From NCBI GenBank assembly GCA_030613055.1, contig JAUWMR010000004.1, positions 62,001-126,000 on the forward strand: a stretch of 64,000 nt of DNA, in the 5' to 3' direction. The DNA comes from Desulfobacteraceae bacterium. Its GTDB lineage: Bacteria; Desulfobacterota; DSM-4660; Desulfatiglandales; Desulfatiglandaceae. The notes beneath the pieces are model-generated. The model worked only from the letters and a program-made list of their open reading frames with translations, had not been told where the DNA came from and ran no database searches. This document shows, in pieces, positions 5,419 to 53,599 of the stretch. The translations under genes and the position numbers were made by a program. Position 1 is the stretch's first letter; the number at the start of each line of letters is the position of its first letter.

Positions 5419-5708
5419 TGCTTTGCCCCTGGAAGGGGTTAAAGCGCTATAAAGAAAAAAGTGCCTAAAATGCCTAAAGTTTAAAGTGCCTAAAGTTGTG
5501 GTACGCCTTCGGCGTGCTATTTAAAAAACAACGCCTCAGGGGTTTGCCCCCTTTTGTCGGCTAATTGGTATAATAGAGTAATTTTTTTTAAAAAATAGCA
5601 GAATTCATTAACTTTAGTCCCGCCGTGGCGGGATTTGGCACTTTAGATCACTTTAGGCACTTGTGTCCCGCTATGCGGGGAAGGACATGGTTTGAAAAAC
5701 GAAATAAA
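5419..5708 (+). repeat. P1 repeat, copy B
   Basis: A full P1 element: left arm with AAGTGCCTAAA and GCCTAAAG motifs near 5459-5495, central TACGCCTTCGGCGTG hairpin, GCAGAATTCATTAAC, a right arm of TTTAGGCAC motifs to about 5660, then GGACATGG and GAAATAAAG. The right arm carries an extra palindrome TCCCGCCGTGGCGGGA (5618-5633), where copy E reads GGCATTTTAGGCA. A second palindrome, TCCCGCTATGCGGGGA, is at 5666-5681. Confidence 0.88.
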
Positions 5709-52445: not shown

Positions 52446-52520
52446 GGGCGGATAGCTCAGTGGGAGAGCGTCGGCCTTACAAGCCGAGGGTCGCAGGTTC
52501 AAATCCTGTTCCGCCCACCA
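52446..52520 (+). tRNA. tRNA-Val (anticodon TAC)
   Basis: 75 nt, acceptor GGGCGGA / TCCGCCC, anticodon arm TCGGC-CTTACAA-GCCGA, T arm GCAGGTTCAAATCCTGT, and encoded ACCA. First of the tRNA run behind lon. Confidence 0.96.
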
Positions 52521-52594: not shown

Positions 52595-52705
52595 GGGGAC
52601 GTAGTTCAGTTTTGGTTAGAACGTCCCGTCAGACATGACGGGAAGGTCGCCAGGTGAACTCCTCTCAAGCACCCGCTTTTCATAAGCGGGAAAAACATAA
52701 TTTAC
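52595..52705 (+). pseudogene. tRNA-Asp-like tandem unit 1 (degenerate)
   Basis: Its first 29 bases (GGGGACG, TAGTTCAG, TTTTGGTTAGAACG) are identical to the genuine tRNA-Asp at 52929. The anticodon arm is replaced by the 20-base hairpin TCCCGTCAGACATGACGGGA, the T arm is unrecognisable and the 3' acceptor strand and CCA are missing. It ends with the hairpin CCCGCTTTTCATAAGCGGG followed by AAAAA. It cannot form a working tRNA-Asp. Confidence 0.85.
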
Positions 52706-52817
52706 GGGGACGTAGTTCAGTTTTGGTTAGAACGTCCCGCATCTCAATGCGGGAAGGTCACAGAAACGAGTCCTTTCGCAAAAAGTGGTATTTACAGAGT
52801 TATAAATTTACATACAC
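52706..52817 (+). pseudogene. tRNA-Asp-like tandem unit 2 (degenerate)
   Basis: The same 29-base 5' half, then the hairpin TCCCGCATCTCAATGCGGGA in place of the anticodon arm. The remainder (AAGGTCACAGAAACGAG onward) diverges from units 1 and 3 and lacks the terminal hairpin. No 3' acceptor strand. Confidence 0.82.
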
Positions 52818-52928
52818 GGGGACGTAGTTCAGTTTTGGTTAGAACGTCCCGCATCTCAATGCGGGAAGGTCGCCAAGGGAACTCCTCTCAAGCATCCGCT
52901 TTTCATAAGCGGGAAAAACATAATTTAC
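52818..52928 (+). pseudogene. tRNA-Asp-like tandem unit 3 (degenerate)
   Basis: Same 5' half, anticodon-arm hairpin identical to unit 2, and 3' part almost identical to unit 1 (CTCCTCTCAAGCA, hairpin TCCGCTTTTCATAAGCGGG, AAAAACATAATTTAC). Period to the neighbours is 111-112 bp. Confidence 0.83.
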
Positions 52929-53007
52929 GGGGACGTAGTTCAGTTTTGGTTAGAACGCCGGCCTGTCACGCCGGAGGTCGCGAGTTCGAGTCTCGTCGTC
53001 CCCGCCA
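52929..53007 (+). tRNA. tRNA-Asp (anticodon GTC)
   Basis: 79 nt, acceptor GGGGACG / CGTCCCC, D arm with a slightly long loop, anticodon arm CCGGC-CTGTCAC-GCCGG, T arm GCGAGTTCGAGTCTCGT, discriminator G and encoded CCA. It is the only complete member of the array and has its own terminator. Confidence 0.95.
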
Positions 53008-53018
53008 TAAGAATCCTG

Positions 53019-53053
53019 AGGCTTGTCGTTTTACATAAGTGACAGGCCTTTTT
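53019..53053 (+). terminator. Intrinsic terminator after tRNA-Asp
   Basis: AGGCTTGTC / GACAGGCCT 9-bp stem (one wobble), followed by TTTTT. It ends only 6 bp before the GIY-YIG start codon. Confidence 0.85.
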
Positions 53054-53058
53054 CATTC

Positions 53059-53316
53059 ATGACTTATTACGTGTACATAATCGAAAGCCTCAAAGACGGA
53101 AGCTATTACGTTGGATCCACTCAGGATCTTGATTCTCGCCTTGAGCGTCACAACCAGGGCCGATCACAATACACGAAACCGAAGAGGCCTTGGAAATTGG
53201 TATACTCTGAGGAACACCCCGATCGATCGAGTGCAGTAAATCGAGAAAATCAAATTAAAAAACACAAAAGCAAAGAATACATTGAATCCCTTGTTGAATG
53301 TTCCCGTCACATTTGA
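53059..53316 (+). CDS. Small GIY-YIG endonuclease-family protein
   Basis: An 85-aa single-domain GIY-YIG protein of the YhbQ/UPF0213 type. The signature is YYVYIIESLKDGSYYVGSTQDLDSRLERHNQGRS, followed by TKPKRPWKLVYSEE and REnQIKKHKSKEYIESL. Catalytic Arg and Glu candidates are present. No ribosome site precedes the ATG, since a terminator occupies the space; a TTG at 53023 would extend it by 12 residues. The last codons (C-S-R-H-I-stop) are read from a TCCCGTCACATTTGACGGGA hairpin that belongs to a tRNA-Asp-like remnant. Family members include stand-alone proteins of unknown role; homing-type activity is possible here because of the flanking tRNA copies. Confidence 0.85.
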   Translation: MTYYVYIIESLKDGSYYVGSTQDLDSRLERHNQGRSQYTKPKRPWKLVYSEEHPDRSSAVNRENQIKKHKSKEYIESLVECSRHI

Positions 53317-53394
53317 CGGGAAAGGTCGCCCCGCTTACACCGCGCAGCGGGACCTTCAGCGAGTTCCCCGCCTGTGGCGGGATCGTCCCCGCCA
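53300..53394 (+). pseudogene. tRNA-Asp-like remnant (3' part) with inserted hairpins
   Basis: After the anticodon-type hairpin at 53302-53321 comes AAAGGTCGCC, a second palindrome (CCCGCTTACACCGCGCAGCGGG), GCGAGTT, a third palindrome (CCCCGCCTGTGGCGGGA) where the T loop should be, then TCGTCCCC-G-CCA. The 3' acceptor strand, discriminator and CCA are those of tRNA-Asp. The 5' half is replaced by the end of the GIY-YIG gene. Confidence 0.78.
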
Positions 53395-53402
53395 GCAAAC
53401 AC

Positions 53403-53437
53403 AAGGGTTTCAGCATTTTGTTGAAACCCTTTTTTTA
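53403..53437 (+). terminator. Intrinsic terminator after the tRNA-Asp-like remnant
   Basis: AAGGGTTTCA / TGAAACCCTT perfect 10-bp stem, 9-base loop, then a run of seven T. Confidence 0.92.
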
Positions 53438-53599
53438 TGTCTTGTTAATTTTTCCAACCCTATTTCCAACCTTTTCCTCTGATAAACCATGCAGCCATTT
53501 TAACCTTTACATACATTAAATTAAATTCATCTTTTTCACGTATCTTGATCAAGGCTCAGACACCTCATGTGGTCGCACCGATAGAGGAATCCTATGCAA

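Follow-up and report, generated by a model that had tools for sequence, protein, structure and literature searches.

Hairpin-ended inserts with a tRNA and a small GIY-YIG gene in bacterial tRNA genes: a candidate mobile element

We observed that a small GIY-YIG gene of a Desulfobacteraceae bacterium lies, together with an intact tRNA-Asp gene, between tRNA-Asp halves in which a hairpin stands in place of the anticodon arm. At many other loci the arm is replaced just as exactly, the accompanying tRNA is of the matching isotype, and the residues taken to be catalytic in the nuclease are intact; one site is found with the insert present, decayed and absent. Such inserts beside many tRNA genes in distant phyla have the look of a mobile element of a kind not yet described. 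Probably, though by no means certainly, they are small hairpin-directed elements that end in hairpins, replace the anticodon arm of a tRNA gene, and bring along a tRNA of the same isotype and a GIY-YIG nuclease. Among the titles and abstract openings of the open-access literature, we found neither a bacterial tRNA-linked GIY-YIG element nor a link between GIY-YIG proteins and REPs.

The tRNA-Asp locus of the window

The window is the whole stretch of DNA analysed, 64,000 nucleotides in length. It contains three 5'-half remnants of tRNA-Asp, one intact gene and one 3'-half remnant, with the GIY-YIG gene before the 3' half. The order at the locus is lon - tRNA-Val - [5' half - hairpin - stub/spacer] three times - intact tRNA-Asp - terminator - GIY-YIG - hairpin - 3' half - terminator, and synteny shows lon-tRNA-Val-tRNA-Asp to be its conserved context. 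The features are listed below.

52446..52520, + strand: tRNA-Val(tac), upstream neighbour (ARAGORN; synteny)
52595..52623, + strand: tRNA-Asp 5' half (positions 1-26), outermost copy (sequence)
52624..52643, + strand: left terminal hairpin TCCCGTCAGACATGACGGGA, in the place of the anticodon arm (86% match to 53302-53321)
52644..52705, + strand: AGGTCGC stub and spacer, first array unit (sequence; repeat search)
52706..52734, + strand: tRNA-Asp 5' half, second copy (sequence; repeat search)
52735..52754, + strand: hairpin TCCCGCATCTCAATGCGGGA, in the place of the anticodon arm (palindrome scan; sequence)
52818..52846, + strand: tRNA-Asp 5' half, third copy (sequence; repeat search)
52847..52866, + strand: hairpin TCCCGCATCTCAATGCGGGA, identical to that at 52735..52754 (palindrome scan; sequence)
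52929..53007, + strand: intact tRNA-Asp(gtc) (ARAGORN; Rfam RF00005, 69.7 bits)
53008..53058, + strand: cassette-type terminator (AGGCTTGTC..GACAGGCC, T run) (sequence; compared with empty-site terminators)
53059..53316, + strand: GIY-YIG gene, 85 aa, ATG at 53059, TGA ending at 53316 (ORF, Pfam, AlphaFold model)
53302..53321, + strand: right terminal hairpin TCCCGTCACATTTGACGGGA, containing the GIY-YIG stop codon (palindrome scan; sequence)
53322..53394, + strand: tRNA-Asp 3'-half remnant AAGGTCGC...TCGTCCCCGCCA, with CCA end (sequence; repeat search)
53395..53440, + strand: resident-type terminator (AAGGGTTTCAG..CTGAAACCC-like, T run) (best match is an empty-site terminator, L078)

The original prediction had placed the start of the GIY-YIG frame 51 bp after the intact tRNA-Asp, behind its terminator, and its end inside a hairpin of a tRNA-Asp 3' remnant that keeps its CCA and a terminator. 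Both points held (52929-53007 against an ATG at 53059; stop codon within 53302-53321), and the 51 bp contain a terminator-like hairpin (GGCTTGTC..GACAGGCC and a T run). The same prediction took the 5' half of this remnant to be missing, which proved wrong: of the three 5'-half copies (52595, 52706, 52818), the first is this half.

In all tRNA-Asp remnants of the window the anticodon arm is swapped for a TCCCG...CGGGA hairpin. The last base of each 5' half is the one preceding the arm (GGTTAGAACG), the hairpins all begin there, and the variable loop (AGGTC or AAGGTC) comes directly after each of them. As these borders coincide, each hairpin is a stand-in for an anticodon arm. The two outermost hairpins (52624 and 53302) share the arm TCCCGTCA/TGACGGGA and match at 86%; the inner pair has the arm TCCCGCAT/ATGCGGGA, and its members are identical to each other. 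From the match of the outermost pair, the insert can be described as running from the 5' half of the resident tRNA through a first hairpin, the intact tRNA with its terminator and the GIY-YIG gene to a second hairpin and the 3' half of the resident tRNA. By analogy with the pair of relatives described below, the outermost 5' half is read as that of the resident tRNA-Asp; the remnant at 53322..53394 is read as its 3' half, and the intact gene as a replacement tRNA brought by the insert. The T arm of the 3'-half remnant is also broken by two GC hairpins (53330-53351 and 53367-53381). A DNA query spanning the intact tRNA-Asp found two places in the whole assembly, both at this locus; since it matched nowhere else, the intact copy looks like the sole tRNA-Asp gene of the assembly, which is 95.6% complete.

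The window has 12 palindromes of the form TCCCGN3-12CGGGA, whereas 100 shuffled versions averaged 0.65 and never exceeded 4. The tRNA-Asp locus accounts for four of the 12; the others lie at 5618, 10489, 10683, 30708, 33488, 36729, 36851 and 53615. The Rfam scan of the window returned only three tRNAs at gathering scores, and no match to a group I intron RNA family. Tandem tRNA duplications might have caught a GIY-YIG gene between them, the outer copies then being pseudogenised by common palindromic repeats. The array units of about 111 bp (repeat search) do look like slippage copies, and tRNA repeats and REP-like palindromes are common in the source genome (408 palindromes, where the reversed pattern gives 146). 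The exact replacement of the arm is what such a neutral history fails to account for, and we judge it improbable.

The 85-aa protein is a bare GIY-YIG core (PF01541, E 6.1e-21). Its Pfam matches are to GIY-YIG and T5orf172 only, with no HUH tyrosine transposase domain, and no DNA-binding domain was found beyond the core. Y6, Y17, G19, R27, H31, A59, E63 and K67 do not vary across an alignment of 29 relatives; Y6, Y17, R27, H31 and E63, which we take to be the catalytic residues, are all intact in the window copy. An AlphaFold model (mean pLDDT 88.9) has as its nearest fold the UPF0213 protein BH0048 (PDB 1zg2, Foldseek E 3.0e-05), which is also the closest by sequence (phmmer 2.8e-12). Next come Slx1 (PDB 7cq2 and 6seh, whose titles mention branched and 5'-flap DNA), sharing the GIY-YIG fold, and then, weakly, the I-TevI catalytic domain. 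Slx1 is a eukaryotic repair enzyme, larger than the window protein and solved with Slx4.

The lon site in related genomes

Loci at lon were taken from 31 genomes and from 16 further or repeated entries, and 40 were examined. Thirty contain an intact tRNA-Asp, and the remaining ten end before it. A GIY-YIG match is present at 10 of the 30, two of which (L230, L232) are cut by a contig end and one of which (L240) is a 22-residue stub. Among the 20 others, L068 breaks off at an apparent GIY-YIG start. L092, a lon locus with no GIY-YIG gene, keeps a D arm and hairpin as a footprint; L241, with no GIY-YIG match, comprises 112 bp only. At the lon locus L075, the cassette lies 9 kb off, behind an integrase island.

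The clearest evidence for a tRNA-splitting insert is a comparison within one genus (g2), in which the lon-tRNA-Val-tRNA-Asp site is empty in genome G055, holds two tandem cassettes in G001, and is decayed in G054, where a 22-residue GIY-YIG stub remains. The flanks of G055 and G001 correspond (272 of 300 bases identical on the left, 56 of the first 60 on the right), and between them G055 has one tRNA-Asp where G001 has 866 bp. These 866 bp start with a 5' half and a hairpin, go on with the intact tRNA, a terminator, the GIY-YIG gene, a further hairpin and the second cassette, and finish with a hairpin and a 3' half; the two cassettes are identical. The original prediction, which had proposed a tRNA-Asp and GIY-YIG cassette within a tRNA-Asp gene and had asked for occupied and empty sites to be compared, was thus largely right, as one site exists in syntenic empty, occupied and decayed states. 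Its further suggestion that the tRNA had been partly restored did not stand: the resident tRNA is split in halves, and the complete replacement tRNA is in the insert.

These three states at one conserved site, and the tandem duplication of the cassette at locus L083, would also be expected of a free-standing homing endonuclease of the SegB kind. It would make a double-strand break in tRNA genes and spread by homologous recombination, with the hairpins as passive bystanders and later landings in redundant tRNA copies. SegB of phages T4 and T6 is the closest functional precedent: it is a GIY-YIG enzyme encoded next to tRNA genes that cuts within tRNA genes, the 3' end of its gene shares microhomology with a tRNA 5' end, and the tRNA and nuclease unit is amplified in tandem (PMC13096335, PMC2988022). 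It differs in being phage-borne, whereas the window type consists of 85-aa core proteins on the chromosomes of many phyla; hairpin-substituted tRNA halves and a replacement tRNA are absent from the passages on SegB that were consulted. The motif of SegB is given as RAWTSGAAC (PMC13096335). By our comparison its reverse complement, GTTCSAWTY, reads as the T-loop consensus, and it is notable that T-arm hairpins in remnants (L172, L176) interrupt this very stretch.

In classical homing, the insertion destroys the target. A recognition site inside the tRNA would here persist, since a full-length intact tRNA stays beside the gene. In addition, passive landing predicts neither the exact replacement of the arm nor matching hairpins at both ends, and the protein consists of the catalytic core alone. 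On its own, classical homing leaves the hairpins unexplained, and we regard a SegB-like origin as rather unlikely.

Integrative elements use tRNA genes as attachment sites and bring in tRNA sequence by which a functional tRNA is re-formed. Genome G003 contains such a case (G003:C2:424500-436500, L228): a prophage-like island of 9 kb that encodes a tyrosine integrase (PF00589, E = 8.5e-32) sits in tRNA-Asp and has shifted the GIY-YIG cassette away from lon. The remnants could then be left from integrase-driven islands, which also duplicate tRNA 3' ends. The G003 junction, however, lies in the anticodon loop (CTGTCAC) and not at the arm base, and no hairpin is left there, which marks a separate event. 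Both in the window and at L083, the cassettes hold a GIY-YIG gene as the only gene between the tRNA halves, with no recombinase, and both ends are hairpins in the place of the anticodon arm. An integrase origin thus appears very improbable.

Two other lines of argument were set aside. Displaced cassettes with a tRNA-Asp 3' half that starts in the anticodon loop, and with no 5' half (L011, L014, L098, L108), were not used as proof of GIY-YIG movement, because the gap in G003 (L098) is the tyrosine integrase island; in the L011 genome, no tRNA-Asp and no lon were found in the 20-kb stretch examined. Terminator families were considered as proof of the cassette borders and gave only 7 of 13 in an automated test (one exception, L104, runs on into a second tandem unit), and the G055/G001 pair was used instead.

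GIY-YIG genes beside tRNAs in other bacteria

We scanned 84,980 species genomes by protein similarity alone, which gave 43 loci. Relatives that are never near tRNAs would have spoken against the original prediction; in fact 26 of the 43 have a tRNA within 150 bp of the GIY-YIG gene (ARAGORN), or 22 of the 33 with enough flank. At the other 17, no tRNA was seen within 150 bp (10 of the 43 loci hold little flank). The density of tRNAs around GIY-YIG genes was 2.46 per kb within 150 bp, against none in 45.3 kb at a distance of 800-1500 bp.

The scan loci, the paralogues from 14 genomes and the loci from 85 class genomes together gave 135 distinct GIY-YIG genes. A tRNA lies within 150 bp of 62 of these, and it is on the same strand in 62 of 62. 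Several phyla and several tRNA isotypes are represented among the tRNA-linked genes. The record titles of the loci name Desulfobacterota, Nitrospirota, Bacteroidota isolates (Eudoraea, Pseudozobellia, Draconibacterium), Chloroflexi, Cloacimonas and CPR bacteria. Distant relatives (<60% identity) occur in 19 phage and 6 plasmid records, and two plasmid loci were inspected. The raw counts of tRNA proximity and of cognate halves include ARAGORN misreadings such as SeC (L028) and Thr (L032), which we reject as real tRNAs; they are hairpin-substituted remnants. The neutral history considered above is already strained by this recurrence of one layout across many isotypes and phyla, always on one strand.

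Two layouts were seen. The gene either follows the intact tRNA, or lies between a 5' half with its hairpin and the intact tRNA, the latter order being found at L024, L025, L050 and others. The last GIY-YIG codons are often encoded in tRNA or hairpin sequence, and the gene is always on the strand of the replacement tRNA. The source genome itself has two tandem GIY-YIG genes after tRNA-Asn (G000:C18:79214-79822; L002, L005), with hairpin-substituted tRNA-Asn remnants on both sides.

We then compared each gene's tRNA with the flank across the gene, counting a cognate half when it outscored all 300 shuffles; two loci were dropped for short flanks, and a locus with tRNAs on both sides was counted twice. 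A cognate half was present in 47/65 cases overall: 34 of 46 where the tRNA precedes the gene and 13 of 19 where it follows. Random tRNA halves gave 4 of 60 at GIY-YIG genes without a near tRNA. No significant half was seen in 12 of the 46 and 6 of the 19. The cognate half outscored all other isotypes in 36/59, and direct repeats between the two gene flanks exceeded all 50 distant controls in 46/56. Inverted repeats flanking the tRNA-linked genes did so against all distant controls at only 5 of 60.

A hairpin abuts the cognate half in 30 of 64 entries, and its edge is the exact arm base in 11 of 18 on the 3' side and 14 of 23 on the 5' side. Under a strict test by exact short matches, a hairpin-capped half was found at 21 of 61 loci, against none (left) and two (right) with scrambled halves. 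Only five of these strict-test loci are two-sided, and many tRNA-linked loci have a single hairpin-capped half. In the two-sided loci, the left and right hairpins match at 6.8 of 8 arm bases, against 4.56 when re-paired; with five loci and 44 possible re-pairings, this means that no re-pairing was as good.

A host function or toxin-antitoxin role was also weighed, in which the protein would be an anticodon nuclease acting on tRNA and the hairpin-substituted tRNAs a decoy or antitoxin RNA. The matched isotype and the retention of tRNA-like remnants would suit it, as would the 0.9-Mb Levybacteria genome G095, where we noted 17 PF01541 GIY-YIG domains on contigs C2, C6, C7, C9, C10 and C11, many of them in genes adjoining different tRNAs (Ser, Val, His, Gln, Asn, Pro and others). 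Genes and remnants decay, however, with stops inside several copies, and the gene is absent in near relatives, and we find this role scarcely credible.

Hairpin types, UPF0213-type genes and a possible mechanism

The type of hairpin varies by genome: TCCCG..CGGGA in Desulfobacterota, TCCGTCAGCTGACGGA in Draconibacterium and TCCGATGGACATCGGA in Uhrbacteria. In Levybacteria the hairpins differ from tRNA to tRNA, which we counted against the reading as an element. The Draconibacterium type (TCCGTNAGCTNACGGA) has 19 copies in that genome, 6 in G089 and none in 12 other genomes. Its dispersed copies often cap other hairpins of terminator-like appearance (such as ATGCCA[H]TGGCATTTTTT and AAGCCA[H]TGGCTTTTTTT). 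Of 18 dispersed copies in Draconibacterium and a second genome, 8 sit on an outer stem of at least 5 bp, where re-pairing the flanks gave an expectation of 0.65 (p <= 0.0005). The TCCCG palindromes of the source genome gave no such enrichment over 23 sites (1.11 vs 1.29, p = 0.77).

TCCCGAGTACTCGGGA has 8 copies in a Saprospiraceae genome (G099), and every one lies in a remnant of tRNA-Asp (in the anticodon or T arm) or of tRNA-Pro; L263 and L264 look like overlapping ends of two contigs and may represent a single site. This restriction to tRNA arms is a further point against the neutral history. A GIY-YIG gene within the 23S rRNA gene was also noted in the source genome (G000:C81, 603-863, reverse strand; L003). 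This gene sits on the tip of a roughly 18-bp inverted repeat, and Rfam aligns 23S rRNA across it.

The number of palindromes and of GIY-YIG genes per genome correlated weakly (Spearman 0.25, p = 0.02, n = 85, kinship uncorrected), and three palindrome-rich genomes of one genus had no GIY-YIG match at E 1e-8. The correlation, being weak, was not used as support. The test is blunt, because the E 1e-8 cut-off drops the UPF0213 paralogue of the source genome.

This paralogue (G000:C19:87535-87825; L006, L196) and the loci L197-L226 are GIY-YIG genes of UPF0213 type, with CGTC-type REP palindromes in inverted orientation on either side. The set comprises 30 loci in 85 genomes and one Rhizobium plasmid locus; for the plasmid element an empty site was sought and none was found, and L227, a plasmid locus, gave no match to the UPF0213 query. 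The inverted repeat between the flanks exceeded all 24 distant controls in 23 of the 29 loci with enough flank. The typical layout is CGTCATTCCCGCG..CGGGAATCCAG - gene - CTGGATTCCCGC..GCGGGAATGACG, and GTCAT upstream with ATGAC downstream was found at 17 of 31 loci; further out the pair occurred at 1 of 31, and in the reverse orientation at 2 of 31.

These flanking repeats resemble the CGTC-type REPs of PMC3733652, and the layout appears REPtron-like, but with a GIY-YIG enzyme. There, GTAG REPs go with RAYT transposases, and for CGTC REPs the authors found no dedicated transposase in 2013 (PMC3733652). The likeness lies in short dispersed hairpins and in genes flanked by inverted copies; the difference is that RAYT is an HUH tyrosine transposase (PMC3733652), whereas here the enzyme is a GIY-YIG nuclease, one branch of which uses tRNA arms.

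In a tree built on 86 columns, in which many forks are open, none of the 59 tRNA-linked rows belongs to the 33-row UPF0213-like fork, and among these 59 the tRNA isotype switches at least 27 times. Inverted repeats were also noted around other GIY-YIG genes. Another clade (L116, L119, L187, L193-L195) is flanked by ACCCTGTTAAATA...TATTTAACAGGGT repeats, the 3' one within the gene end, and the genes at L040, L041, L044, L134 and L144 lie between inverted copies of CCCTGAGCCTGTCGAAGGG-type repeats.

We propose that the hairpin-directed element would land in a tRNA gene and that its terminal hairpins would take the place of the anticodon stem-loop, so that the resident tRNA would survive only as two non-functional halves, one at each end of the insert. 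Between the hairpins it would carry a complete tRNA of the same isotype and the single-domain GIY-YIG gene, on either side of that tRNA. The nuclease may be structure-specific, like its fold relative Slx1, and may cut hairpins extruded from single-stranded or cruciform DNA, of which tRNA arms would be natural targets. The break could be resolved by joining or copying hairpin-ended element DNA, which would exchange hairpin for hairpin; we infer both that the nuclease causes this exchange and the direction of transfer. Units would later stack in tandem or lose the gene, giving arrays of half-tRNA and hairpin.

It is possible, and we put it forward tentatively, that small GIY-YIG proteins in general are mobilisers that swap hairpins. 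The UPF0213 branch would act on CGTC REPs and the other branch on tRNA arms, disrupting essential tRNA genes and supplying a spare tRNA, while related hairpins would have reached terminator loops, palindromes and a 23S rRNA helix.

If these readings are right, the GIY-YIG proteins would be a candidate enzyme for CGTC REPs, which have lacked a known mobiliser (PMC3733652). Arrays of half-tRNAs and widespread palindromes would also be explained. The element would survive entry into an essential single-copy tRNA gene by means of its spare tRNA, and would represent a new type of mobile element that chooses its targets by the shape of DNA hairpins.
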